From: Streptomyces sp. PCS3-D2
GTDB lineage: Bacteria; Actinomycetota; Actinomycetes; Streptomycetales; Streptomycetaceae
Length of the DNA stretch: 64,000 bases
Assembly (NCBI RefSeq): GCF_000612545.2
Contig: NZ_CP097800.1
Coordinates: 5,902,501-5,966,500, forward strand
Direction: 5' to 3'
Shown here: one piece after another, positions 5,863 through 42,139 of the stretch
Layout: each line of letters opens with the position of its first letter
How positions within the stretch are numbered: position 1 is the first letter of the stretch
Notes under the pieces: model-generated
Database searches by the model: none
Told to the model about the DNA's origin: nothing
Seen by the model: only the letters and a program-made list of their open reading frames with translations
Translations under genes and position numbers: made by a program

Positions 5863-7977
5863 TCAGGCCGCGAGTTCTTGGATTGCCGAGACCACCCGCG
5901 ACGCGAGGTACTTGTGCCCCGCGTCCGTGGGGTGGGTCGCATCTGTCCCGATATAGAGGTCGGCATTCCCCGACCCGGTGGGCGCGCCGACCCGGCCGGT
6001 GCCGGTGATCCACGGCCCGTGCGTCGCCACGAGCGCCCCGGCAGCGTCGTACACCGCTCCCGTGATGGGGGAGATGAACGGCAGGCCCGCGGCGGCCGCG
6101 GCCAGCCGGAGTGTTTCGTCCGTGGTCGTCAGCGAGGCTCCCGGTGAGCCGGTCGGCGCCCAGCAGCCGAGGATGTAGATCCGCGCCGCCGGTAGCCCGG
6201 CGGTCACCGCGCTGTACAGGCTGGCTGCGGCCGCCGCGATGGCCGACTGTGATCCGCCGGAGTCGTTGTACCCGGCGAAGATCAGCAGCACGTCCGGGTT
6301 GTGCGGGATCACGTCGATCGGCGCGCGCGTGCCCAGCGTGGCCGTGGACCCGGCAGTGATGTAGCCGGTCGAGCCGAGCGCCTCGTTCCAGGCGTCCGTG
6401 TACCCGAGCGCGCGGGCCGCCCGCGGGAAGAAGGTGCCGGCGCCGCCGGCGGTGTTCATGCTGGAGCCGCCCGGGATGGAGTCCCCGAACACCATGATCC
6501 GGCCGGACGGGGCCGGCGGTTTCCACATCGTTGCCCCAGGCGGGAGGAAGATCCCTCCGAACGGGGCCACGCTGAAGTCCAGCCGGATCACGCGCGGCTG
6601 CGCGGCGCCCAGCGTCACCGTCATCAGGTGCGTGTTGCCGGGCGTCGTCCCGCCGAGGGGCTGCATGAGGTCCGTCATGCGGCGGCCGTCCACCCACAGC
6701 CGGTAGGAGCCGCCCGTCTGCCAGTTGAATCGGAGCTGGAACGCGGTGGCGTCCGTGCCGAACTCCACCGACCAGATCGACTGTGAACTGCTGAGGGTGC
6801 CGCGGGTGTTCGGGTAGCGGGTCGTCGGCAGGACGTAGGTGGAGTCCGGTGTGCCCGAGCCGATCTGGAACCCCCCAGCCCCCAGATACGAGAACGGGCC
6901 CGTCACGTCCGAGCCGGCCAACGCCACCCCGGGCGGCGCGTACTTGACGTACCCGGCCGCTGGCGTCGACGTCTGCGCCACGCTGATCGCCGACGGGGCC
7001 GGTGCGGGCCCCATGTTCGTCAGCGTCATCCGCCACGGATAGCCGGAGTATGCGTACACCCGGCCGGCGCCGGTGCCCTGGTTGACGAGTGCGATCGTCG
7101 CCTGCCCGCCGGCGAGGTGGCTGGCGGCCACCGTGAACGTGCCGCCGCTGGTCGCCTTCCCGAACGAGGTGGACGGGTAGAACTCCGGCGCGCCCTCCGC
7201 GAGCGGCGACGACGTTCCGGAGGCCCCGTATTGGGCGATGGCGCCTGCGGAGTCGAGGAGCGCCAGGTCGAGGTACCTCGTGCCGCTGTAGAGCATGCCG
7301 AGGTCTACGCGGATCCGGTCCCCGGGCTCGGCCGGGATGCTGCACTTGAGTTGGGTGCCGACGCTCGTCGCCGCGATCGTCCACGATGCGGCGGACGCCA
7401 GGTCCTGCACCGCGCCGTCGGAGATCTGGACCTCTGCGGTACGACTCGGGGCGCCGTCCGCTCCCGCCAGGCCCTGGAGACCCTGCGCGCCGTCGGCGCC
7501 CGCGGGCCCGGCCGCTCCGGTCTCTCCGGCAGGGCCAGTATCGCCCTGCGGGCCGGTCGCCCCGTCCGCGCCGTCCGCGCCGTCGGCGCCTGCCGGTCCG
7601 GCCGGACCCTCGGGGCCGCGCAGGTAGGTGACGTTCCCGGGGTCGGCCTGGATCAGGTCGGTGATGGGGACCGGGCTCCCGTCGCCGTAGGGCAGCAGGA
7701 AGTGGAGCACCTTGACGATGACGCCCTGGTGGTACTCCTCGTACCGCCACAGGCGGCCGGTGACCGGCTCGATGGTGGTGTCGTCGGTGGTGACCAGCTC
7801 GGCGGACCAGGCGCCGTTGGTGATGGTCTGCTCCTCGCCCGGCGAGGCGAGGATGGTGTCTCCGTCGGTGTCGGTCCAGCGGGCCGGGTAGGGGGCCAGG
7901 ACGACCCGCCGGATCCCTGACGACGCCCCGATGATCTGGCTGCCGACCAGCCCGGTCACGGTACGGGTGGTGGGCAT
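5863..7977 (-). CDS. Tail fibre / receptor-binding protein with collagen-like region and SGNH hydrolase domain
   Basis: A 704-residue protein and last gene of the late operon. Residues 1-120 are a conserved phage tail attachment-like segment; 121-177 are Gly-X-Y collagen-like repeats (GPEGPAGPAGADGADGADG), which trimerise fibres; 180-470 are beta-rich; 498-704 form an SGNH/GDSL hydrolase with GDS (498-500), GYND (569-572) and DATH (679-682), so the serine, Asn and Asp/His catalytic positions are present. By family analogy it may deacylate cell-surface or capsule polysaccharide during adsorption. It follows lysis genes rather than tail genes, which is common for receptor-binding modules swapped between phages. 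Confidence 0.85.
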   Translation of the reverse strand: MPTTRTVTGLVGSQIIGASSGIRRVVLAPYPARWTDTDGDTILASPGEEQTITNGAWSAELVTTDDTTIEPVTGRLWRYEEYHQGVIVKVLHFLLPYGDGSPVPITDLIQADPGNVTYLRGPEGPAGPAGADGADGADGATGPQGDTGPAGETGAAGPAGADGAQGLQGLAGADGAPSRTAEVQISDGAVQDLASAASWTIAATSVGTQLKCSIPAEPGDRIRVDLGMLYSGTRYLDLALLDSAGAIAQYGASGTSSPLAEGAPEFYPSTSFGKATSGGTFTVAASHLAGGQATIALVNQGTGAGRVYAYSGYPWRMTLTNMGPAPAPSAISVAQTSTPAAGYVKYAPPGVALAGSDVTGPFSYLGAGGFQIGSGTPDSTYVLPTTRYPNTRGTLSSSQSIWSVEFGTDATAFQLRFNWQTGGSYRLWVDGRRMTDLMQPLGGTTPGNTHLMTVTLGAAQPRVIRLDFSVAPFGGIFLPPGATMWKPPAPSGRIMVFGDSIPGGSSMNTAGGAGTFFPRAARALGYTDAWNEALGSTGYITAGSTATLGTRAPIDVIPHNPDVLLIFAGYNDSGGSQSAIAAAAASLYSAVTAGLPAARIYILGCWAPTGSPGASLTTTDETLRLAAAAAGLPFISPITGAVYDAAGALVATHGPWITGTGRVGAPTGSGNADLYIGTDATHPTDAGHKYLASRVVSAIQELAA

Positions 7978-7986
7978 GCGGTGCTC

Positions 7987-8232
7987 CTATCGGCCGAAGA
8001 GGGTGTAGAGGAGCGAGCCGACGCCTGCCAGGGTGGCGATGGTGGCCAGGGGCCAGCGGTTCCGCTCGAGGGCGTCCAGCCTCGTCTCATGGTCGGCGAG
8101 CTGCTTGTCCGTTTGGTCACTCCGCTGGACGAGGAGCGCCAGGGCCCCGTCGACCCGGGCGAACCCGGTGTCGACGGACCCGCGCAACTTGGCGATTTCG
8201 GTGGCCACGTGCTGCGACTCGGAGGGTGTCAT
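7987..8232 (-). CDS. Coiled-coil protein with C-terminal membrane helix (XhlA/holin-associated type)
   Basis: An 81-residue protein: residues 1-57 are a heptad-patterned helix (IAKLRGSVDTGFARVDGALALL and the following LADHETRLDALE), and 60-79 are a single hydrophobic segment (WPLATIATLAGVGSLLYTLF). This layout is that of XhlA-like proteins encoded next to holins and endolysins. The ATG overlaps the stop of the holin-like gene (ATGA). Probable membrane partner in lysis. Confidence 0.65.
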   Translation of the reverse strand: MTPSESQHVATEIAKLRGSVDTGFARVDGALALLVQRSDQTDKQLADHETRLDALERNRWPLATIATLAGVGSLLYTLFGR

Positions 8233-32001: not shown

Positions 32002-32026
32002 GGTGTGCTGCTCCTGATGCCTGGGT

Positions 32027-32119
32027 GGGTGTCAGACACCCGCGCGGCGGCGGGCTTCCTGGTAGGCGGTGTGGGCGGTCATGCACGCCGTGTCGGTGCC
32101 GCCGCGGTCGGGGTGTGCG
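32027..32119. repeat. Copy B of the ~93-bp duplication
   Basis: Partner of 31564..31656; lies in the 3' end of the WhiB/J-domain fusion gene and its stop region. Confidence 0.8.
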
Positions 32120-33108
32120 TCGGCCATGGCCTGCCGGAGGGTCTGGAGGGAGGCGGGTTCCGGGTGTGTGGGGAGCTCCGGGGGTGCCAGGTACAGCAGG
32201 CACCGCAGTCGGCGGTGGTAGGCCTCGCCGTGGGCTTCGATGTGCTGCCGGTCGACGTAGCTGGCCTTGCCCATGAACGTGAAGCTGATCCGCTGGGGGG
32301 TCTTCTTCGTGATGGGGTGGCGGCGGATCTCGTAGTTGCCGGCGGGGCCGTCGTCCCAGTTGGCGTCCCACAGGTCGTACAGGTACTCCACGGGCGCGGG
32401 TACGGCGGGCGCGGGCGGGGTGGGGGCGGCGAGGGCGTCGCGCAGCTGCCGGTCGGTGAGGTGCTGCCAGGCCACGCAGTTGTCGACGTCGCAGGTCCTC
32501 TTGACCGTGCCGTCCGGGAGCCGGCCGTGGCCGACCTCGAAGGCGAGGCGGACGCCTTTGACCCGGCGGCCGCCGACGACGGTGCCTTCGTCGCCGGTCC
32601 ACAGCAGGTGGTCGTCCGGCCCCGGGCGCGTGCGATGTGCGAGGCGCTCGGCCGGGGTTGTGCCCCGCAGGTCGGCGTGTGTGGGCAGGCCCAGGTCCCG
32701 GCGCAGTTGGCTGACGGTGTGGCGGCCCACTCCGGTGGCGTCGGAGACCTTTTCGTTGCTCAGCAGGCCTTCGCGCAGCAGCCGTTCGGCCTGCTCCATG
32801 TCGCCGGTGATCCGGCCGCCGGTCGGGGCGGCGGGCCGCTGGTAGCCGGAGAGGGCGGCGCGCTCGCTCGGGGTGAGGCCTCCGCGGATGTCCGAGCGGT
32901 ATCCGGGTGGGGTGGTGCCTTCCTCCCGGAGGGCCTGGTCGAGGCAGCGGAGCCTGACCGGGCAGTCTGCGCACAGGTCCTTGGCCGCGGTGTCGCTGGA
33001 ATGGAAGTCCTGCAGTTTCCCGACGCATGCGCCGAGCGCGGCCCAGTCGGTGGCCGGATCGGTGTCGGCGTGCGGGCGGGACCGGGGGTTGGAGACGAGG
33101 GTCGACAT
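32032..33108 (-). CDS. WhiB-like / HTH / HNH-like / J-domain fusion protein
   Basis: A 358-residue multi-domain protein. Residues 20-90: WhiB-type [4Fe-4S] domain with C28, C46, C49, C55 (CX2CX5C) and RGGLTPSER in place of the usual G(V/I)WGG turn. 105-142: HTH (LSNEKVSDATGVGRHTVSQL). 165-225: HNH-like zinc unit (TGDEG...HGRLPDGT, CDVDNC, WQHLTD). 240-305: an extra domain (YEIRRHPITKKTPQRISF). 322-358: a truncated J-domain helix pair with HPDRGG at 332-337. WhiB proteins sense redox/NO and bind sigma factor; a J motif would recruit Hsp70. The combination is unusual; each domain call is by pattern. In the early operon, likely regulatory. Confidence 0.7.
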   Translation of the reverse strand: MSTLVSNPRSRPHADTDPATDWAALGACVGKLQDFHSSDTAAKDLCADCPVRLRCLDQALREEGTTPPGYRSDIRGGLTPSERAALSGYQRPAAPTGGRITGDMEQAERLLREGLLSNEKVSDATGVGRHTVSQLRRDLGLPTHADLRGTTPAERLAHRTRPGPDDHLLWTGDEGTVVGGRRVKGVRLAFEVGHGRLPDGTVKRTCDVDNCVAWQHLTDRQLRDALAAPTPPAPAVPAPVEYLYDLWDANWDDGPAGNYEIRRHPITKKTPQRISFTFMGKASYVDRQHIEAHGEAYHRRLRCLLYLAPPELPTHPEPASLQTLRQAMADAHPDRGGTDTACMTAHTAYQEARRRAGV

Positions 33109-33118
33109 CGAGGCCTCC

Positions 33119-33289
33119 TCAGGTGCTGGTCGGGGCGGTGACGGTGAGGGTCCAGTCGCTGCTGATCAGGTAGGCGGCGATGAACTGGGCGAGGGCGGCC
33201 GGGGTGGACTGGTCGGGCGGGGTGATCACGCGGTGGTCCTCGATGGCGGCGGTGATGACGAGCAGCGCGGCGTCCGGGACACCGGTCAC
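33119..33289 (-). CDS. Small hypothetical early protein
   Basis: A 56-residue ORF with GTG overlapping the upstream stop (GTGA); contains a hydrophobic start (VPDAALLVITAAIED) and ALAQFIAAYLISSDWTLTV. No family recognised. Coupled translation between two convincing genes supports it as real. Confidence 0.5.
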   Translation of the reverse strand: MTGVPDAALLVITAAIEDHRVITPPDQSTPAALAQFIAAYLISSDWTLTVTAPTST

Positions 33290-33828
33290 TGGGTCGTCCG
33301 TCCGGTCGCGGACCGCCACTGCTCGACGACCGTTTGCGGGACGATGCCGACCGGCGCGCATTCCACCCCGGCCTGCTGCGCCCAGGACCGGACCTCGGCC
33401 GGGGTGTAGTCCCGGGCGGCCGGCGCGGGACGGGGCTTGGTGGTGCGGCCCTTGCCCTTGAGTTCGGCCTCTCGCGTCTTCAGCCGGTTCAGCTGCTCCT
33501 GCAGCTCGTCCACCTGGCTGATGATGCGCAGGAGCTCTTCCTCGTGCTGGTGGCGGTTCTGCAGGGCTTCCAGCGCGGTCAGGGCACGGTCGGCGTACTG
33601 GCGGACCGCGGCGGCCGGGTGGTTGGTGCCCCAGGCGAGGAGCGCGACCGCGTTCGGGACGGCCTGCGGCGTCTCGGGCTGCGGGATCTTGCCGCGGGCG
33701 ACGAGGGTCTTGTGCGTGTCGATGATGGCGGTGACGTCGGCCAGGGGGGCGCCGGTCTGGTCGGCGATCCGCTGGTCGCTGTACCCGTCGCGGTGCAGCT
33801 GCATCACGACGGCGGCGGAGACTCTCAT
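33286..33828 (-). CDS. DNA-binding protein with C-terminal Lsr2-like domain
   Basis: A 180-residue protein. Residues 1-35 are an HTH (VVMQLHRDGYSDQRIADQTG), 85-125 a coiled coil (LLRIISQVDELQEQLNRLKTRE), and 140-172 match the Lsr2 C-terminal AT-hook-like fold (YTPAEVRSWAQQAGVECAPV, then GIVPQTVVEQW). Lsr2 is the actinobacterial xenogeneic silencer; phages carry such domains as antagonists, own nucleoid proteins or regulators. The coiled coil would allow dimerisation or mixing with host Lsr2. RBS GAAGGGA upstream of ATG 33828. Confidence 0.75.
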   Translation of the reverse strand: MRVSAAVVMQLHRDGYSDQRIADQTGAPLADVTAIIDTHKTLVARGKIPQPETPQAVPNAVALLAWGTNHPAAAVRQYADRALTALEALQNRHQHEEELLRIISQVDELQEQLNRLKTREAELKGKGRTTKPRPAPAARDYTPAEVRSWAQQAGVECAPVGIVPQTVVEQWRSATGRTTQ

Positions 33829-33854
33829 GGGCTGTGTCCCTTCTGTGCGGCGGG

Positions 33855-34220
33855 TCAGCAGGGGCTGACGAGGTGGCGGTAGCCGACGAGGGCCCCGGCG
33901 GCGTCGTGGACGGAGTCGAACCCGATGAGGAGGTCGGCGCGGCCGCGCGCGGTCAGGCCGATGGCGGCGTCGACGAGGAGGTAGGTGTTCGGGCGGCTGG
34001 GCGGCAGGTCGCGGACGACGTGCCGGACCAGGTAGGTCTGGACAGGGCGGCCGCCGTGGAAGGTGCGCTCGCCCCGGCCGAGGGAGACGAGGTCGACGTA
34101 AGCCGGCGGAACTTCGGCGGCGAACACGGTGCACCCGGTGTCGAGGGCGTCGTCGGCGATGACGTCGGGAGCGTCCGGCCCGTACACGCGCACGGTGTCG
34201 CCGGTCAGGTTGATGATCAT
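33855..34220 (-). CDS. Small phage protein, paralogue of the gene at 31657..32001
   Basis: A 121-residue protein beginning MIINLTGDTVRVYG with a middle YLVRHVVRDLPPSRPNTYLL and ending YRHLVSPC. The start overlaps the preceding stop (ATGA). Shared N- and C-terminal patterns with 31657..32001 indicate duplication. Unknown role. Confidence 0.65.
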   Translation of the reverse strand: MIINLTGDTVRVYGPDAPDVIADDALDTGCTVFAAEVPPAYVDLVSLGRGERTFHGGRPVQTYLVRHVVRDLPPSRPNTYLLVDAAIGLTARGRADLLIGFDSVHDAAGALVGYRHLVSPC

Positions 34221-34441
34221 TCGGGGTCCTTCGGGGACGGGCGGCCCTCGGCCGCGGTGATCGGTGGGCAGATGTGCCAGCCCTCGCTGCGGACGTCGGC
34301 CACGGCCTGCGCCCCGACGAGGGCGGCGACCCGCTCGGGCAGGTCCACGCCGAGCGCCAGGAGCTCGCGCTGCACGGCCGCCGCGACGACCGCGGCCACC
34401 GCGTCCGCCACGACGCCGGCCGGCCGGTTCACCGCGTCCAC
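34217..34441 (-). CDS. Small hypothetical early protein
   Basis: A 74-residue protein, Ala/Val-rich helix at residues 5-40 (VVADAVAAVVAAAVQRELLA), then WHICPP and a Pro-rich end. Its ATG overlaps the end of the zinc-finger gene by 13 bases. No known family. Confidence 0.55.
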   Translation of the reverse strand: MDAVNRPAGVVADAVAAVVAAAVQRELLALGVDLPERVAALVGAQAVADVRSEGWHICPPITAAEGRPSPKDPE

Positions 34442-34746
34442 CCCTGCCAGCGCACCGGCCGCACACCGGACCGCTCACGGGGCGTGGCACGGCCGCTGCG
34501 CCCGGGCCGGGGGGCGGTGCAGGTGGCGGCGTGGGGCATGTAGCGGCGCTCGTAGGTTTCGACGTCGGGGCGGTCGGCGGTCAGGCCGCGGGAGCGCAGG
34601 GTGCCGACGCCGTCGCGGTAGGCGGCGAGGTTGCCGAGCGGGTTGGGTTCGGCGTTGACGGCCTGGCGGCGGCCGGCGGCGGTGATGGTCCACCGGATCG
34701 GCTGGCCGCACCTGTTGCAGGCGGTGACGTCGTAGTCGCTGGGCAT
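34429..34746 (-). CDS. Small zinc-finger protein
   Basis: A 105-residue protein with CNRCGQPIRWTITAAGRRQA near the N-terminus and ATCTAP in the second half; the CxxC unit with a following beta hairpin and a later HAATC suggests one zinc site. The basic C-terminus fits nucleic-acid binding. Common type in Streptomyces phages. Confidence 0.6.
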   Translation of the reverse strand: MPSDYDVTACNRCGQPIRWTITAAGRRQAVNAEPNPLGNLAAYRDGVGTLRSRGLTADRPDVETYERRYMPHAATCTAPRPGRSGRATPRERSGVRPVRWQGWTR

Positions 34747-34756
34747 GGGTGGCTCC

Positions 34757-34966
34757 TCAGATGCCCGGGAGCGGGACGCATCCGCGGTGGTTGAGGCACT
34801 CCACCTCGTCGCCGGAGACGAGGTGGACGTGCCGGCCCTTGGCGGCCAGGTCCTCGGCGGCGGTACGGGCGGGCGGGACCGGCGCGGGGCTGCCGAACGG
34901 GACAGGGGCGGTGTCGGCCCATGCCTCGTGGAGGTCCGGGGCGGTGGGGGCGGCGTGGAGCGTCAT
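34757..34966 (-). CDS. Small hypothetical early protein
   Basis: A 69-residue protein (MTLHAAPTAPDLHEAWADTA at the start; VSGDEVECLNHRGCVPLPGI at the end) with a CxxxxxC pair near the end. It follows the replication-initiator-like gene by 12 bases in operon order. Unknown function. Confidence 0.5.
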   Translation of the reverse strand: MTLHAAPTAPDLHEAWADTAPVPFGSPAPVPPARTAAEDLAAKGRHVHLVSGDEVECLNHRGCVPLPGI

Positions 34967-34978
34967 GGGTGGGCCCTC

Positions 34979-36001
34979 TCAGGCGGTGTCGGTGGCGGTG
35001 GTGTCGTCGCGGAGGTGGGGGGAGACCAGGCGCCAGCCGTAGACCTTGATGGCCTCGGTCCGGCCGAGCTTGCGGATCGCCCGCCGTACGGCCTCGGGGT
35101 CGGTCTCGGCGGCCGCGCGTACGTCGGCGACCGTGGCCACGTGCTCGGGGTCGCGCACCGACAGCAGGAGCGGCATCTGCCCCCGGCTGCTGGCGCTTTT
35201 CGTCTTGACCTCAGCGGCGCGGGCGTCGCGCCGCTCCTGGGTGGTCAGGGCCAGGCGCGGCGGCGCGGGCGGCGGGGCGGTGTCGAACGGGTCGGCCTCG
35301 GTCGGCGTGGTGTCGACCTCGTCGACCTCGGGCGGCTCGCCGAGCTCCTCGGGAGCGACCCCCAGGGTCAGGTGACCACCAACAGCAGCCGATTCCTGGG
35401 GTAGTACCTGGGTAACCCTGGGACGTTGGGGGGCCGGTCCCCCCATTTCAAGGGGGGCCGGTCCCCCCATTTCCAAGGGGGGCCGGTCCCCCCATTTGCC
35501 TTCCGGTGAATTGGGGGGCCGGTCCCCCCTATTCGGGCCCTCGGAATGGGGGGCCGGTCCCCCCATCTCGGGGGCGGCCTCCTCGGCCCACGGCGCCGAC
35601 TCCTTCTTCGGCCGGCGCCGCTTCCGCTCCTCGATGACCGCGACTGCCGCGGCCCAGTCGGGGCGAGGGCTGATGACCAGTACGTACACGGTCGGGCGGC
35701 CCGGGCCGGGCGGTTCCTCGGTGGTCACGACCCCGGCGGCGACCGCGGCCTGCAGCCACACCCGGACCTCCTTGATGTCCGAGCAGGAGGCCGCGGCCAC
35801 GCTCTGCACGCGGATCGCCTTGCCGTCCCGCATCCGCAGCACACCGCTGGTGTTCGCGGCGGTCGCCAGGGCGTACAGGACGGTCAGGAAGCCACCGCGC
35901 AGGGGCCGGGGGAGGCCCCGCGTCCACCGCCAGTACAAGGCGTTGCGGTAGGCGTGCGGGACGCCTCCGCTGACGTGGTCCGGCTGCTGCTCGTCGGGCA
36001 C
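34979..36001 (-). CDS. Replication initiator-like protein with winged-helix N-terminus and internal iterons
   Basis: A 340-residue protein. Residues 20-110 form a winged helix-like domain (FLTVLYALATAANTSGVLRM, then IKEVRVWLQAAVAAGVVTTEE, PTVYVLVISPRPDW). Residues 145-195 are a Gly/Pro segment with repeats of the type LEMGGPAP, encoded by the 17-bp iterons. The C-terminal domain (DVRAAAETDPEAVRRAIRKLGRTEAIKVYGW, in part) is another helical DNA-binding-like unit. Domain order and the location of iterons inside the gene parallel lambda O and similar phage initiators. The identity is inferred, not matched to a named family. Confidence 0.6.
   Translation of the reverse strand: MPDEQQPDHVSGGVPHAYRNALYWRWTRGLPRPLRGGFLTVLYALATAANTSGVLRMRDGKAIRVQSVAAASCSDIKEVRVWLQAAVAAGVVTTEEPPGPGRPTVYVLVISPRPDWAAAVAVIEERKRRRPKKESAPWAEEAAPEMGGPAPHSEGPNRGDRPPNSPEGKWGDRPPLEMGGPAPLEMGGPAPQRPRVTQVLPQESAAVGGHLTLGVAPEELGEPPEVDEVDTTPTEADPFDTAPPPAPPRLALTTQERRDARAAEVKTKSASSRGQMPLLLSVRDPEHVATVADVRAAAETDPEAVRRAIRKLGRTEAIKVYGWRLVSPHLRDDTTATDTA
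35428..35564. repeat. Five perfect 17-bp iterons: candidate replication origin
   Basis: GGGGGGCCGGTCCCCCC occurs at 35428, 35452, 35477, 35513 and 35548, every copy exact, with start-to-start spacings of 24, 25, 36 and 35. Each is nearly palindromic (GGGGGG CCGG T CCCCCC). They sit inside the initiator-like gene. Regular spacing and perfect conservation point to binding sites under selection, as in phage and plasmid origins. Confidence 0.8.
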
Positions 36002-36050
36002 GATCGCCTCTCTGGGTCGGGGTGGTGCTGCAGTGCGGGCGGGAGCGGCG

Positions 36051-36422
36051 TCAACGGCACCCGCGGACCCGGGCCATGGCGGCGGCGGGGATGGACAGCT
36101 GCAGCGGTTCGGTCTCGTACCGGGCGCCCCGGACGGGCTGGATCCACTGGCGCTGTTCCAGCGCGGCCAGCTGGACCAGCACCATCCCCGCGGTCAGGCC
36201 GGTGGCCTTGACCAGGCCGGGGACACCGGGCTGCCTGTTCGCGGGGATCACTCCGTCGGGGTTGGCGAACACCCCGAGGACCAGGGCGACGACCTTGGTG
36301 TGGGGGATCATGCGGGCGTCGCGGACGGCCTGCAGGTAGTTCCCGCGGAACTTCCGGCGGGACCCGGCCAGGACGGCGGGAGCGAACCGCGCAGCGAGGT
36401 CGGCGGGAGTCGGGGTCTTCAT
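36051..36422 (-). CDS. Winged-helix phage protein next to the initiator gene
   Basis: A 123-residue protein with MIPHTKVVALVLGVFANPDG and LVKATGLTAGMVLVQLAALE, then QWIQPVRGARYETEPLQL: a helix-turn-helix followed by a wing. It resembles the N-terminal domain of the next gene's product, so the two may act together at the origin or be diverged copies. ATG at 36422; no catalytic motif. Confidence 0.6.
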   Translation of the reverse strand: MKTPTPADLAARFAPAVLAGSRRKFRGNYLQAVRDARMIPHTKVVALVLGVFANPDGVIPANRQPGVPGLVKATGLTAGMVLVQLAALEQRQWIQPVRGARYETEPLQLSIPAAAMARVRGCR

Positions 36423-36425
36423 CGG

Positions 36426-36644
36426 TCAGTCCTCCGAAGTGGCGTCGGCGGGCGGGTCGGGGTCAGGAAGCTGGAGGTTGAGGTAGGAACCGGCAGGCCA
36501 GCCCGGACCGGGCGGCGTCTCAGGCCGCCCGGCCAAGGCGTTCGGGGTGTGCCGGGCGCAGCGCCACCCGCACGGGTACAGGCGGGCGGGCTGCAGGCTG
36601 TGCGGCAGGAGCAGGGCCTCGCAGGCCGGCGGCCTGCGAGTCAC
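36426..36644 (-). CDS. Small Cys-containing phage protein
   Basis: A 72-residue protein: PACEALLLPHSLQPARLYPCGWRCARHTPNALAGRPE in order (given in pieces: CEALLLPHS, LYPCGWRCARHTP, ALAGRPE). The pattern is frequent in Streptomyces phages and is often mislabelled as a LigA-like dioxygenase; no dioxygenase active site is present. GTG start overlaps the upstream stop. Confidence 0.6.
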   Translation of the reverse strand: MTRRPPACEALLLPHSLQPARLYPCGWRCARHTPNALAGRPETPPGPGWPAGSYLNLQLPDPDPPADATSED

Positions 36645-36793
36645 AGGCGGCGGACGGCCACGGCCACGGCGGCCCGCCACCCGGCGGCCACGGCGCGGAC
36701 CGTGACCACCAGGAACAGCAGGAGACCGACGGCCCAGGCCAACAGGCCCATGAACAGCAGGACGAGGAGGACGAGGGCGGTCAGGTTGCTCAT
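36641..36793 (-). CDS. Small membrane protein
   Basis: A 50-residue protein with one long or two short hydrophobic helices (ALVLLVLLFMGLLAWAVGLL, then LFLVVTVRAVAAGW). Both ends overlap neighbours by 4 bases. Unknown; small phage membrane proteins in this position may affect superinfection. Confidence 0.6.
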   Translation of the reverse strand: MSNLTALVLLVLLFMGLLAWAVGLLLFLVVTVRAVAAGWRAAVAVAVRRL

Positions 36794-37164
36794 CCCAGCC
36801 CGGGCTCTCTCTGGGCCGGCAGCGGCGTGGCGGGCGTCCGCAGCTCCCGCAGCTCCCTCGTCAGCGACTCGTTGCAGGCCTGCGCCTGGAGGAGCAGGGC
36901 GTCGAGTTTGCCCGCCCGCTCCCGCCAGGTCCGCAGCTCGGTGGCGAGCTCCGTCGCGCCGGGGACCGTGGTCATCTGCCGCAGGGCGCGGATCTGACCG
37001 CGCAGCAGCGTCTCCGTGGCGTCCGGGGTGGTGGACTCGGCCGGCGGCGGGGGCGGCCCGGGCCGTACGGCCAGCCGCGGCCGGGCCTTCTCCTCCTCCA
37101 GCCGCGACCGCAGGTACGCCACCTCCGCCTGCAGGCGCCGGCGCGACGCGAACCAGCCGCTCAC
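36790..37164 (-). CDS. Coiled-coil early protein
   Basis: A 124-residue protein with two heptad segments (RLQAEVAYLRSRLEEEKAR and LRTWRERAGKLDALLLQAQA) separated by a Pro-rich linker (PGPPPPPAEST). GTG start overlapping the upstream stop. Unknown function. Confidence 0.55.
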   Translation of the reverse strand: MSGWFASRRRLQAEVAYLRSRLEEEKARPRLAVRPGPPPPPAESTTPDATETLLRGQIRALRQMTTVPGATELATELRTWRERAGKLDALLLQAQACNESLTRELRELRTPATPLPAQREPGLG

Positions 37165-37700
37165 AGGTCCGCCTCCTCGCGGGTCTCGCGCTCGGCGCAG
37201 TCCTCGCACCCGCAGTACGTCCACGACCCGTCGATGAACTCGGCGCCGCAGTCCTCGTCGTCCTCGGGGCCCGCACCGTCACCCGCCTCGGCCTCCTCGG
37301 CCGCCCGGCGCTCGTCGTCGGCGACGTCCAGGGCGATCTCGGCGGCCTTCTCCTCCTCGCGGGTGGGGTGCTCCACCTCGTCGGCGTACTCGGCGTAGTC
37401 GTGCATGGGTCCTCCGGGAGTCACGTCGCCGCACTCGTCGCAGACGAGGCCGGCCGGGGTACGGGTGTGGCGGGTGGTGAGGTGGGCGCAGTGGGGGGTG
37501 TGGCAGACGGCCCAGGCGTCCGGGGCGGCGCGGCGGTGCCGTCCGCTGCCGGGGCCGTAGGGCCAGTCGGCGGCCGGGAGCTCCACCGGCGGGAACCGGT
37601 GGGGCGGCCGGCGCTCCAGCGGAGGCCTCACCCCGTACTGGACGAGCTGCACCACGAGGCAGGCAACGGCGAAGAGCAGTAAGGGCAGCTCACGAGGCAC
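37161..37700 (-). CDS. Membrane-anchored zinc-ribbon protein
   Basis: A 179-residue protein: N-terminal membrane helix (LPLLLFAVACLVVQLVQYGV), then a zinc-ribbon (CHTPHC...CDECGD, about 66-90), an acidic linker, and a second Cys cluster near the C-terminus (DCGAEF, YCGCEDC). GTG start. Early operon, unknown role. Confidence 0.6.
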   Translation of the reverse strand: MPRELPLLLFAVACLVVQLVQYGVRPPLERRPPHRFPPVELPAADWPYGPGSGRHRRAAPDAWAVCHTPHCAHLTTRHTRTPAGLVCDECGDVTPGGPMHDYAEYADEVEHPTREEEKAAEIALDVADDERRAAEEAEAGDGAGPEDDEDCGAEFIDGSWTYCGCEDCAERETREEADL

Positions 37701-38184
37701 GGTGCACCGCCCCGGACCAGGCAGTGACGGCGTCGCCGGTGATGACCAGGTAGACCGTCACGCCGTCGCGGCGGCCGCGCACGGTATACGTGCCGCCCAG
37801 GTAGGTCCCGGTCTGCGGGTCGGCCTCGAACCGCCCCAGCCACCACCGCAGGCAGTCGGGCGACTGCGGGCGGACGGTGACCTGCACCTCCGTCGCCGAG
37901 CGCACGACCGTCCCGAGGACGTCGGGCTGCGACGTCCGCAACCGCAACGCCAGGTCGGCGGCCGGGGAGTCCTCCTCCACGTCCGGGTCGATGGTGTGCA
38001 CCGGGACGGTCACCGGCCGGACAGTGACCGGCCGGAGAGACGCGCGGGCGGCCGCGGTCTCCGGGGACTGCAGCAGCTGGCAGTCCTCCAGCGCCTGCGC
38101 CAGCTCCTCGGCCGTCGTGTGACCGAGCTCCATGGCCGCCTGCAGCGCGCCGGCCGCGTGCCGGACCCGCAGCACGGCGCTCAC
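37690..38184 (-). CDS. Hypothetical early phage protein
   Basis: A 164-residue protein: helical N-terminus (AAGALQAAMELGHTTAEELAQA), a central linker, and a beta-rich C-terminal half (YLGGTYTVRGRRDGVTVYLV) ending VTAWSGAVHRAS. Overlaps neighbours at both ends. No family recognised. Confidence 0.55.
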   Translation of the reverse strand: MSAVLRVRHAAGALQAAMELGHTTAEELAQALEDCQLLQSPETAAARASLRPVTVRPVTVPVHTIDPDVEEDSPAADLALRLRTSQPDVLGTVVRSATEVQVTVRPQSPDCLRWWLGRFEADPQTGTYLGGTYTVRGRRDGVTVYLVITGDAVTAWSGAVHRAS

Positions 38185-38612
38185 GACGCCTCACCGCCGG
38201 TCCGACCCGCGACGACGGCCTCCAGCTCGGCGATCCGCTCCCGCAGCCGGTGCTCGGGCGACCCGACCGGCACGACGGCGCGCAACTCGACCTGGCGGCT
38301 GCCGTACGTGAACTCCAGCTGGTACCAGTCGTGCGTGTCGTTGTACCGCCGGCCGTCGGCCTTGGGCGTCCCGCCGAACAGGTCGGCGGCCAGGTCCAAG
38401 AGCCTCGCGCCGTGCTCTTCCTGGCCCGGTGTGTACGGGTAGAGGGTGCCGCTCAGGACGATCGGGCCCTCCGGCAGGTGAACCCAGTACACCGCGGTGA
38501 GGAGGGTGGCGAGGTCCCGGTCCCGCTCGGCACGCAGGGTCAGCCGGGACAGCAGGACCGCGGACTGCGACGTCCGGGGCGGGGTGTTGGGGGGAGTACT
38601 GTCGTCGTCCAT
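38181..38612 (-). CDS. Hypothetical early phage protein
   Basis: A 143-residue protein, alpha/beta pattern with LLTAVYWVHLPEGPIVLSGT, DWYQLEFTYGSRQVELRAVV and a C-terminal coiled helix (EHRLRERIAELEAVVAG). No family recognised. First gene after the hairpin at 38646..38679 in the early operon. Confidence 0.55.
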   Translation of the reverse strand: MDDDSTPPNTPPRTSQSAVLLSRLTLRAERDRDLATLLTAVYWVHLPEGPIVLSGTLYPYTPGQEEHGARLLDLAADLFGGTPKADGRRYNDTHDWYQLEFTYGSRQVELRAVVPVGSPEHRLRERIAELEAVVAGRTGGEAS

Positions 38613-38645
38613 GGTGTTCCTCGATTCGTTGGGTTGAGGAATGCC

Positions 38646-38679
38646 GGGGTCGCTCGGGCCGGGAAGTCGGAGCGACCCC
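38646..38679 (-). terminator. Hairpin downstream of the first early genes
   Basis: 9-bp perfect stem GGGGTCGCT / AGCGACCCC with a 16-base loop, in the 86-bp gap between the 60-codon gene and the next early gene. It could attenuate the early transcript, a point where antitermination may act. Confidence 0.55.
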
Positions 38680-40062: not shown

Positions 40063-40314
40063 ATGGCAGACGACGACGTCTCGCAGGCGGATGCGCATAT
40101 GCCCCCGGCATGCATCCCCATGGTGCAGTCAGTCCTCGTCCCCGACGGTCGAGCCGTAGTTCTCCTCGAACGAGAGGACGGCTCCCTCTGCCTCGCCGTC
40201 CACCCGCTCAAAGTCAGCAAGCAGGCGGTCGACGAGTACAACAACGCCATCCAGCACGCCGGCAGAACCGGCATCGGCACCCTCGCAGCCGCCCGCCCGC
40301 ACCCTGCCCTCTAG
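40063..40314 (+). CDS. Small plus-strand protein between repressor and integrase
   Basis: An 83-residue protein, ATG preceded by GGGGG; residues VLVPDGRAVVLLEREDGSLC and AVDEYNNAIQHAGRTGIG are visible. It is convergent with the integrase, with stop codons overlapping by 4 bases. The 162-bp gap 39901..40062 before it holds no gene and presumably its promoter. It is one of the few lysogen-expressed genes by position. Function unknown; a directionality-factor role would be a guess. Confidence 0.6.
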   Translation: MADDDVSQADAHMPPACIPMVQSVLVPDGRAVVLLEREDGSLCLAVHPLKVSKQAVDEYNNAIQHAGRTGIGTLAAARPHPAL

Positions 40315-41795
40315 CCCTGCCTCCAGCGGATATCGATCCGCTCGACATCCAGCTCCACACCCTTCGGCATACGGCCACGCCGCGCCGGGAGCACCCACAC
40401 CTCCAGGAGGGCATCGATCACCGCGCGCTGCCGCGACAGGTCGATGCCCTCCCACTCCGCCTTAACGTCGGCCGCACCCGCCAACCCCACCAGCGGGTTC
40501 GTCACCGACGCCAGCGACAACAGTTCCTCCGCGCGCCGCTTCCGCTCCCGCGCCTTCGCCGCCGCGGCCTGGTACTCCGCCTTACTCATATCGCCATCAC
40601 CGAACATCTCCGCCAGCTCCCGCAACCGCTGCTCAGCCGCCGACAGCTCAGCGTCCGCCGCCGCCAGGTCGACAGGGTCCTCCTCGCGCTGCGCCAGCAG
40701 ATGCACCGCGTCCTTGCGTGACAGACGGGCGATCACCACAGCCTTCACGTAGTCGTCCAAGGGCTGCGCCCGCCGCGTGACGTGCGCCCCGCTCGAACAC
40801 CGGTAGGCCGCCACATGCCTGTGACCCGCGCCGGTCCCCGAGGTCGAACAGCGCACCGGCAGCCCGCACTCCCCGCCGTCCACGGGATGCGCGCACCGGA
40901 ACAGGCCCGAGCCCAGCCAGCGGCGCGCATTGCTCACCGCGGTCAGCCGGGCCGGATCCTTCAGCTTCGCCACAACGCCACGCCACACCGGCTCAGGGAT
41001 GATCGCGGGCCACGCAGCAGCCCGGACCTCCGTACCGTGGTGCGACAGCAGTCCAGCGTTGCGGTGCCGCAACAGCAGCGTGCGCAGCTCGCTCGGCGAC
41101 CACTCCCGGGATCGTGGTTCCCCGCGGGTACCGTCCTCCTGCCGGTAGCGGCGCGGCACGGTACGCACACCAGCCTCCTGCCACTCCCGGGCGATGGACC
41201 GGATGGACGCGCCAGCCAGCACCGCCTCGGCGGCCTCGCGCAAGTACCGGGCCTCCGACTCGCGGATGGTCATGCCGTCCGCCTCGTACCCGAAGGGTCG
41301 GGGGCCGCCGCGGTAGCCGCCCTCGGCGGCCGTCTGCGCCTTCGCGTCCCGGACGCGCTCGCCGATCTCCTCGGACTCGTACTGGCCGTCGATCGCCGCG
41401 CGGCGGGCGTCGCGGCGGCCCTCCGCTGTCGTGAGGTCGTAGCGGCCCTGCTTGATGGTCTCGACGTGGATGCCCTGCTCGGTGATCAGGTCGAAGAAGT
41501 CGAAGGCATCCCCGATACGGCGGTAGAGGCGCTTCGGCGTCAGTGCGAGGACCGCGTCGGCCATGCCGGCCCGCAGCATGCCCAGCATCTGCTCGTACTT
41601 CGGGCGCCTCTTGCCGCTGTACGCGGAGAGGTCGTTCTCGATGAACACGGCAACGACGTCCCAGCCGTTGCGTTCCGCGCGGGCGCGGCAGTCCTTCTCC
41701 TGGCGGGCGACGCCGGCGCCGCGGCCTTCGCGGTCGTCGCTGATGCGACAGTAGATGATGACGCGGAGACGCTTGCCGTCGTGGTAGGTGCCCAT
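40311..41795 (-). CDS. int: Large serine integrase
   Basis: A 494-residue site-specific recombinase. Resolvase-type catalytic domain (1-150) with nucleophile Ser19 in YCRISDD, conserved GVARQEKDC and YSGKRRPKYEQML. A recombinase domain (about 175-285: GPRPFGYEADG, ATYL-equivalent REAAEAVLAG, PAIIPEPVW). Zinc ribbon with C-x8-C type spacing (CAHPVDGGECGLPVRC ... YRC, about 299-335), then a coiled coil (AEQRLRELAEMF). Size at the short end of the family (often 450-620). It catalyses attP x attB integration; excision needs a directionality factor, not identified here. Intact reading frame. Confidence 0.95.
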   Translation of the reverse strand: MGTYHDGKRLRVIIYCRISDDREGRGAGVARQEKDCRARAERNGWDVVAVFIENDLSAYSGKRRPKYEQMLGMLRAGMADAVLALTPKRLYRRIGDAFDFFDLITEQGIHVETIKQGRYDLTTAEGRRDARRAAIDGQYESEEIGERVRDAKAQTAAEGGYRGGPRPFGYEADGMTIRESEARYLREAAEAVLAGASIRSIAREWQEAGVRTVPRRYRQEDGTRGEPRSREWSPSELRTLLLRHRNAGLLSHHGTEVRAAAWPAIIPEPVWRGVVAKLKDPARLTAVSNARRWLGSGLFRCAHPVDGGECGLPVRCSTSGTGAGHRHVAAYRCSSGAHVTRRAQPLDDYVKAVVIARLSRKDAVHLLAQREEDPVDLAAADAELSAAEQRLRELAEMFGDGDMSKAEYQAAAAKARERKRRAEELLSLASVTNPLVGLAGAADVKAEWEGIDLSRQRAVIDALLEVWVLPARRGRMPKGVELDVERIDIRWRQG

Positions 41796-41842
41796 GCCCC
41801 TGAAGTGTAGGACCGTTGAAGCGTCTTGACAGCGGCTTTGTC
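41796..41842 (-). promoter_or_regulatory. Putative integrase promoter abutting attR
   Basis: On the minus strand TGTCAA (41831..41826), 16 bases, TACACT (41809..41804), then only 8 bases to the ATG at 41795. The spacing places the transcript start at or next to the ATG, and no Shine-Dalgarno is present, so the integrase mRNA may be leaderless. The whole promoter lies in phage DNA 12 bases inside the core and would be present in the circular form too. Confidence 0.55.
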
Positions 41843-41847
41843 CAGTC
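41843..41847. other. attR core (right prophage attachment site)
   Basis: CAGTC, matching attL. To its right the ADH coding sequence resumes with ATGCGCACCGCG (Met-Arg-Thr-Ala), in the same codon phase as at attL. It lies 48 bases from the integrase start, as is usual for serine integrases. Confidence 0.85.
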
Positions 41848-42139
41848 CATGCGCACCGCGGTGAACATCACCCGCGACGGCGGGGCGATCGGCTACGTCG
41901 GCGTCCCGCACGGCAGTGGCACCGGCCTCGACCTCGGCGTCATGTTCGACCGCAACATCACCCTGCGCGGTGGTGTGGCCCCGGTCCGCGCCTACATTCC
42001 GGAGCTGCTGGAGGACGTGCTGAGCGGGGCGATCGACCCGTCGCCCGTCTTCGACCGTGCCGTCCTTCTGGACGAGGTCCCGGACGGCTACCGCGCGATG
42101 GACGACCGCAGCGCGCTCAAGGTGCTGATCAAGCCCTGA
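41848..42139 (+). pseudogene. Zinc-dependent alcohol dehydrogenase, C-terminal part
   Basis: The last 96 residues of the split ADH: TAVNITRDGGAIGYVGVPHG with the second half of the Rossmann fold, then the C-terminal lobe (LLEDVLSGAIDPSPVFDRAV) to the natural stop. A phage-derived TTG/AAG lead-in (41816) keeps the frame open but it lacks the catalytic domain, so any product is not an enzyme. Joined to 1674..2425 it gives 347 residues. Confidence 0.9.

Follow-up and report, generated by a model that had tools for sequence, protein, structure and literature searches.

A putative replication initiator family of Streptomyces phages with iterons inside its own genes

Five iterons lie within one prophage gene

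The window analysed here, a 64,000-nucleotide stretch of DNA from Streptomyces sp. PCS3-D2 (contig NZ_CP097800.1), contains a siphophage-like prophage with a terminase, portal, major head protein and tape measure protein. A single minus-strand gene of this prophage (34979-36001), an open reading frame (ORF) of 340 amino acids with a GTG start, carries five exact copies of the 17-mer GGGGGGCCGGTCCCCCC. Judged by the ORF and its homologues, this is a putative replication initiator gene, and it probably serves a temperate Streptomyces-type siphophage, with the repeats as the binding sites of its product and the origin embedded in the gene. The best reading of the sequences, helped by analogy with known systems, is that of an unannotated family of phage initiators that would bind iterons inside their own genes, beside a tract that may unwind.

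A first-pass annotation of this stretch had described five perfect copies with spacings of 24, 25, 36 and 35, and the description was borne out exactly: the copies span 35428-35564, and these are their start-to-start distances. Iteron 1, the first in the gene (35548-35564), reads GGGGGGACCGGCCCCCC on the coding strand and is followed by iterons 2 (35513-35529), 3 (35477-35493), 4 (35452-35468) and 5 (35428-35444), the last of which adjoins an AT-richer tract. On the coding strand, iterons 1, 4 and 5 are read as MGGPAP and iterons 2 and 3 as GDRPP, so that two reading frames are used within the same gene.

The copies were compared with what chance and coding constraint would produce. A scan of the window on both strands with up to three mismatches returned 19 matches, compared to a mean of 4.7 and a maximum of 10 in shuffled sequences (n = 100), and 15 of the 19 were the five known sites seen on both strands or offset by one base. 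The exact 17-mer occurs ten times in the entire 7.63-Mb genome, five times in the window gene and five times in a second prophage with a copy of this gene, while the reversed 17-mer pattern, used as a control, occurred nowhere in these 7.63 Mb. Synonymous-codon shuffles of the window gene, in which protein and codon usage were held fixed (n = 40), contained at most four copies compared to the five observed; copies in shuffles were counted as 15-mers with up to two mismatches.

Iterons occupy the same place in all homologues analysed

Searches for homologues yielded 82 matching ORFs, 54 of them distinct, and 52 genes were analysed after the removal of L027, which is cut by a contig end and has two visible copies, and of the fragment L070. 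By de novo repeat detection, every one of the 52 genes contains 3-7 near-identical 15-mers. A rescan with dyad-centred 23-mers resolved 4-7 near-palindromic sites of approximately 17-23 bp per gene, mostly five, in all 52 genes and at the same place, with the first site at codon 142-165, directly after the N-terminal domain.

The distances between sites were assessed for all spacings below 60 bp, those of 60 bp or more being kept out. The resulting 213 spacings fell at 23-26 bp (126), 35-37 bp (44) and 45-46 bp (38), with five others, and 208 of them thus belong to three narrow classes separated by one helical turn. In 50 of the 52 genes the array ends with spacings of 25 and 24 bp, the exceptions being L028 and L069. 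The copies use at least two reading frames in every gene and all three in 37 genes. Site identity is 89% within genes compared to 69% between genes, where 28 distinct consensus 17-mers were counted, indicating that each gene keeps its own site set alike. These results established computationally that the sites are maintained as DNA, in phase with the helix.

The sites are also confined to the gene. In the 32 of the 52 loci that extend over at least 9 kb, matches with up to two mismatches numbered 149 in the gene and one outside it, in 523,506 bases. One additional degenerate match each was found in L019, L021, L023, L024, L037 and L052, 82-399 bp off the array, and these six were treated as chance occurrences.

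A residue before the predicted recognition helix covaries with the iterons

The first-pass annotation had proposed a winged-helix N-terminus, and this was supported by an AlphaFold2 model of the N-terminal DNA-binding domain (approximately residues 12-130, 35612-35968, minus strand; placed with the model and a 45-row alignment), which forms a winged helix with a mean pLDDT of 81.2 and a pTM of 0.73. The helix assigned to residues 76-89 (35735-35776) by DSSP in this model is the predicted DNA-reading helix, according to the order of elements in winged-helix folds. The residue right before it, Asp75 in the window protein (codon at 35777-35779), covaries with iteron bases -4, -3 and +4.

When every variable protein column was paired with every variable iteron position (1,568 pairs), residue 75 and base +4 ranked first in the unweighted scan. 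Normalised information at +4 was 0.68 for residue 75 and 0.25 for the next column, and at -4 the corresponding values were 0.53 and 0.16. Asp75 is accompanied by C at +4 in 32 of 33 genes, Arg75 by G in 7 of 7, and Ser or Asn at this position by A in 11 of 12, a rule that holds in 50 of the 52 genes. Classical residue-base pairings include Asp-C, Arg-G and Asn-A.

The covariation was examined on a tree whose alignment omitted the columns around residue 75. On this tree the residue-75 class changes at least 10 times and base +4 at least 11 times. Six independent Asp/not-Asp pairs lie on well-supported branches (eight on all branches), and in these six C at +4 goes with Asp in 5.7 on average and against it in none (sign test, median p = 0.031). 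Close relatives gave the same result. Closest relatives were matched into non-overlapping pairs with 62-90% identity in the domain. A different residue-75 class went with a different base at +4 in 14 of 15 pairs and at -4 in 12 of 15, compared to 1 of 19 and 0 of 19 for pairs of the same class; both exceptions at +4 involve L048. The 17-mers of L018 (Ser) and L009 (Asp), 89% identical, differ solely at -4, -3, -2 and +4, and those of L030 and L019, 86% identical, differ at -4, -3, +3 and +4. Taken with the arrangement of the sites, this sequence evidence makes it very likely that the protein recognizes its own iterons.

An AT-richer tract follows the last iteron

A candidate DNA-unwinding tract extends from +10 to +80 relative to the centre of iteron 5 (35356-35426, minus strand). 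Its AT content is 0.375, compared to 0.230 expected for the same peptide with the gene's own codon usage (z = 8.8). Across the family, the same +10 to +80 region, measured from the centre of the final site, has a mean AT content of 0.428 compared to 0.305 expected from the same peptides and the codon usage of the same genes. The excess exceeded z = 1.64 in 52 of 52 genes, and the tract counts as AT-richer by comparison with the gene but not as AT-rich outright. Among the control segments, three in the N-terminal domain showed an excess in 1, 4 and 5 of 52 genes. The corresponding figures were 3 of 50 for the segment from +150 to +220, 28 of 52 for that from +80 to +150 and 45 of 52 for the iteron region.

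In the alignment the tract contains three CCCA motifs approximately 10-12 bp apart, located in the window at 35419-35422, 35409-35412 and 35397-35400 on the minus strand. The first, as CCCAGG, is found in 49 genes, in one reading frame in 42 and in another in 7; since one frame predominates, protein constraint may contribute to its conservation. After the tract, 12 of 52 genes, L001 and L002 among them, contain an inverted repeat, one arm of which has CTGAGG. It is the longest stem in these 12 of the 52, and we do not claim it as a general part of the region.

Proposed function and alternative explanations

Homologues were identified in the Streptomyces phages Chymera (gp45) and OnionKnight (gp46), where they are annotated as "hypothetical protein". 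Both genomes are complete, at 34.7 and 39.9 kb, and their annotations, in which many genes are hypothetical, list no helicase, primase, polymerase or other initiator. Pfam and PHROG scans covered 45 family members. Matches to replication-initiation families in PHROG were weak and recurrent (phrog_391 and phrog_270 in 11 of 45 members each, phrog_5810 in 6 of 45), and a fold search of viral models matched a replication protein O (E = 5.8e-4, TM 0.44/0.29). Pfam matches were weak and mainly to generic winged-helix families, FaeA-like being the commonest (18/45, best E 1.6e-4); no NCBIfam family was assigned to the five members scanned; and a profile search against solved structures returned PefI (E = 0.0085) and 2x48 (E = 0.079), both as weak matches.

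From the features described above we infer a scheme in which dimers bind the sites, the DNA is wrapped and melted, a helicase is recruited and the site acts as an origin. Each near-palindromic iteron would be read by the N-terminal winged helix, probably in dimeric form, with residue 75 contacting the base pair at +/-4. Five dimers on helically phased sites would form one wrapped complex, which could melt the AT-richer tract immediately downstream, and the C-terminal part, held on the iteron-encoded linker, would then recruit the host replication machinery. That the site is a replication origin is likely, at a strength somewhat below that of the recognition of the iterons.

With somewhat less assurance again, we think it probable that the genes form an undescribed Streptomyces-phage initiator family with self-contained intragenic origins, in which the residue at the start of the helix sets origin identity through the pairs Asp-C, Arg-G and Ser/Asn-A. 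Residue and sites would switch jointly even between proteins whose binding domains differ by just 11%, which would give many natural, probably mutually independent replicons.

Several results weigh against this account. The 75/+4 pair was selected after the scan of 1,568 pairs, and once sequences are weighted it takes second place, behind 75/-4. The rule at +4 fails in L048 and L061, and T at -4 is found in just 5 of the 12 genes of the Ser/Asn group. Taken alone, Arg (2 pairs) and Ser/Asn (4.8 of 6, median p = 0.0625) fell short of 0.05 in the sign test, and the three-residue code is based on 52 related sequences. A check on eight homologues found later did speak for the rule, which all seven of those with sites fit (four Asp-C, three Arg-G), but several sequences of this check set are closely related to the first set and none is a Ser/Asn case. 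The eighth, L093 (G662:C3), is a 126-amino acid stand-alone relative of the N-terminal domain with Gly at the residue-75 position and no iterons, possibly a derived regulator. The best E value among phrog_391, phrog_270 and phrog_5810 is 0.0029, which is weak. Fold searches led to generic winged helices, and no match in the PDB reached a Foldseek E of 0.001. No helicase-loader gene was identified, and context clustering of 36 loci gave no nameable conserved helicase or loader, most clusters being wrong-frame ORFs. GC skew, which the first-pass annotation had put forward as a check on origin activity, did not speak for it: the mean skew in 1-kb bins, with up to 31 loci per bin, does not switch at the site.

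The alternative that survives best, although it is improbable, is that the protein is a sequence-specific regulator or a partition-type protein rather than a replication initiator, with the intragenic sites serving as operators or a centromere through which its own operon is controlled. In PHROG, phrog_2030, a transcriptional regulator, is matched most often (by 26 of the 45 members, best E 1.2e-4), a count that itself weighs against an initiator; the fold matches include regulators such as CRP and MarR, with the plasmid segregation protein TubR at rank 48; and the evidence for recognition would hold equally. The position of the sites is harder to reconcile with such a protein, as they start 142-165 codons into the gene and not at a promoter, and they are nearly absent elsewhere in the scanned loci. 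The codon-controlled AT-richer tract at a fixed place and the lack of another annotated initiator in the two complete phages also suit an origin better.

A role of the repeats as G-quadruplexes, cruciforms or mRNA hairpins, in place of duplex sites for a protein, is very improbable. The window copy does have a G-run and dyad symmetry, which had led the first-pass annotation to suggest a G-quadruplex or a cruciform; the G-quadruplex is not favoured, because relatives such as GTTCGGGTCACCGCGACCCGAAC retain the dyad and lose the long G-run. Spacing in steps of one turn and covariation with the predicted recognition helix point instead to protein on duplex DNA.

A coding repeat for a Pro/Gly-rich linker, with the DNA repetition as a by-product, was rejected as next to impossible: the encoded peptides are linker-like and high GC content restricts codon choice, so that synonymous shuffles of the 52 genes still average 2.35 copies, yet 4.88 copies are observed, 46 of the 52 genes exceed all 40 of their shuffles, the use of two to three frames per gene already contradicts it, and the spacing is helical and the sites covary with the DNA-binding domain. 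Conservation solely as an LEMGGPAP-type coding repeat, which the first-pass annotation had named as grounds for abandoning its proposal, was likewise not found, given that frames differ inside the gene, sites vary between genes and are alike within each, and spacings step by the helical turn.

Comparison with known initiators

In phage lambda, the origin lies in the middle of the initiator gene and contains four iterons (six in Stx phages) that are imperfect 19-bp inverted repeats, and the O protein is a dimeric initiator with an AT-rich tract flanking its iterons (PMC7466680). The family described here resembles this arrangement in having iterons within the initiator's own gene (52 of 52 genes), in having several imperfect inverted repeats, here 4-7 near-palindromic sites of 17-23 bp, and in having an AT-richer tract beside them (52 of 52 genes, mean AT 0.43). 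The lambda O arrangement invoked by the first-pass annotation has survived as a reading, in which the site would probably act as an origin. The same annotation had held the repeat to be unlike AT-rich iterons; this does not apply to its form, as the lambda iterons are likewise imperfect inverted repeats (PMC7466680). In contrast to lambda, the iterons of this family are GC-rich and are set in steps of 24-25, 35-36 and 46 bp. A P-like helicase loader was not recognized here, and none is annotated in Chymera or OnionKnight, many of whose genes are hypothetical. Matches to phrog_391, "replication initiation O-like", reached a best E of 0.011 among its 11 of 45 members and 0.0099 with the full window protein, and no Pfam O family was matched by any of the 45 members at E up to 0.1.

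A second comparison is with the RepA_N initiator of plasmid pSK41, whose binding boxes are placed centrally in the rep gene (PMC5703833). The sites described here are likewise central in the initiator's own gene. No Pfam RepA_N match was obtained among the 45 members at E up to 0.1, fold scores are not above those of unrelated winged helices, and RepA_N hosts are Firmicutes whereas the hosts here are of Streptomyces type. Initiators of the pSK41 type are tetramers that contact DnaG primase through their C-terminal domain, and the C-termini of the present family vary between members. Homology to lambda O or to RepA_N is not established, and the order of N-terminal domain, phased dyad sites, AT-richer tract and variable C-terminus resembles ori-lambda and the pSK41 rep gene by analogy.

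The nearest initiator-origin covariation that we found in print is that of the Vibrio cholerae PLE RepA, for which the RepA_N domain is reported to covary with iteron-bearing origins, so that specificity modules switch (PMC8263062). The origin described there is intergenic, with iterons of approximately 30 bp and covariation at the level of a domain, whereas the covariation described here links one residue with one base pair and is intragenic. For the RepA-type mycobacteriophages Miko and Jeeves, a lambda-like origin upstream of or inside repA has been suggested, and the interval from the tail genes to parS-L was reported to hold no repeat motifs (PMC7157519). According to the same authors their prophages are extrachromosomal and carry parABS, whereas the prophage in the window carries an integrase. 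Literature searches returned no work on the gene family or its repeats; subscription papers lay mostly outside their coverage.

It is an old question how an initiator and its origin can switch specificity jointly and survive the transition; here both lie in one gene. Pairs that are 81-89% identical in the binding domain and differ at residue 75 and in a few site bases offer a direct test with natural proteins. The family also supplies candidate origins for temperate Streptomyces phages, and approximately 50 natural protein-site pairs from which a winged-helix recognition code could be derived.

C-terminal region, neighbouring genes and prophage context

The C-terminal region of the window protein (34982-35302, minus strand) contains a conserved GQMPLLL peptide, has no Pfam match and may be the part that contacts the replisome. 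It represents one of several C-terminal types in the family, of which at least two were distinguished, the GQMPLLL type (11 genes) and CxxC types. The GQ[MR]PLLL-type peptide is conserved among the 11 homologues and resembles sliding-clamp-binding peptides. Upstream of the initiator gene lies a small ORF of 123 amino acids (36051-36422, minus strand), for which neither Pfam nor PHROG gave a match at E up to 0.1. Chymera gp44, directly upstream of the homologue gp45, has weak winged-helix matches.

The prophage encodes a serine integrase (40311-41795, minus strand) recognized by the Pfam Resolvase and Recombinase families and by phrog_95, integrase. It is flanked by plus-strand pieces at 1374-2528 and 41816-42139 that look like an N-terminal and a C-terminal portion of a single zinc alcohol dehydrogenase. 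This suggests a prophage of approximately 39 kb inserted into that alcohol dehydrogenase-like gene. The second, related prophage lies at approximately 5.32-5.38 Mb of the same genome, 583 kb away, with its gene copy at 5.354 Mb. Window positions 33666-38586, which include the initiator gene and all iterons, are letter-identical to it; positions 32020-38652 are 99.4% identical, and the remaining parts are 76-98% alike or unmatched. Two resident prophages that share one origin might interfere with each other.

A minus-strand gene at 32032-33108 encodes a single protein that fuses WhiB-like and HNH-like parts and ends with an HPD motif, as in J-domains. A J-domain is not claimed for this protein, as no match to one was found among solved structures or in Pfam.

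Distribution of the family

The protein search returned three records from Chymera and OnionKnight, two of which are the same phage, and no homologue was found in the plasmids searched at E up to 0.01. A single-sequence search added two IMG/VR contigs and one genome, Streptomyces sp. TBY4, and an alignment search added 32 IMG/VR loci. In genome searches, a homologue was carried by 5 of 100 relatives, none outside the window's genus; by 23 of 393 genomes of that genus, three of them represented by weak fragments alone (E = 2e-4 to 8e-4); by 5 of 345 genomes of the class, including one weak match from outside the genus; and by 16 of 296 relatives of another family member, including two such weak matches from outside it. 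The three matches beyond the genus were all weak (E = 4.0e-4 to 7.5e-4). The genome and protein searches overlap one another.

Two further loci, L075 and L086, were picked up by the iteron pattern alone and were left unused, the stretches examined containing no homologue. On the viral contig L086, positions 7860-8130 hold an array of GGACGGGGGACCGCACCCC-like units with a spacing of approximately 45 bp.
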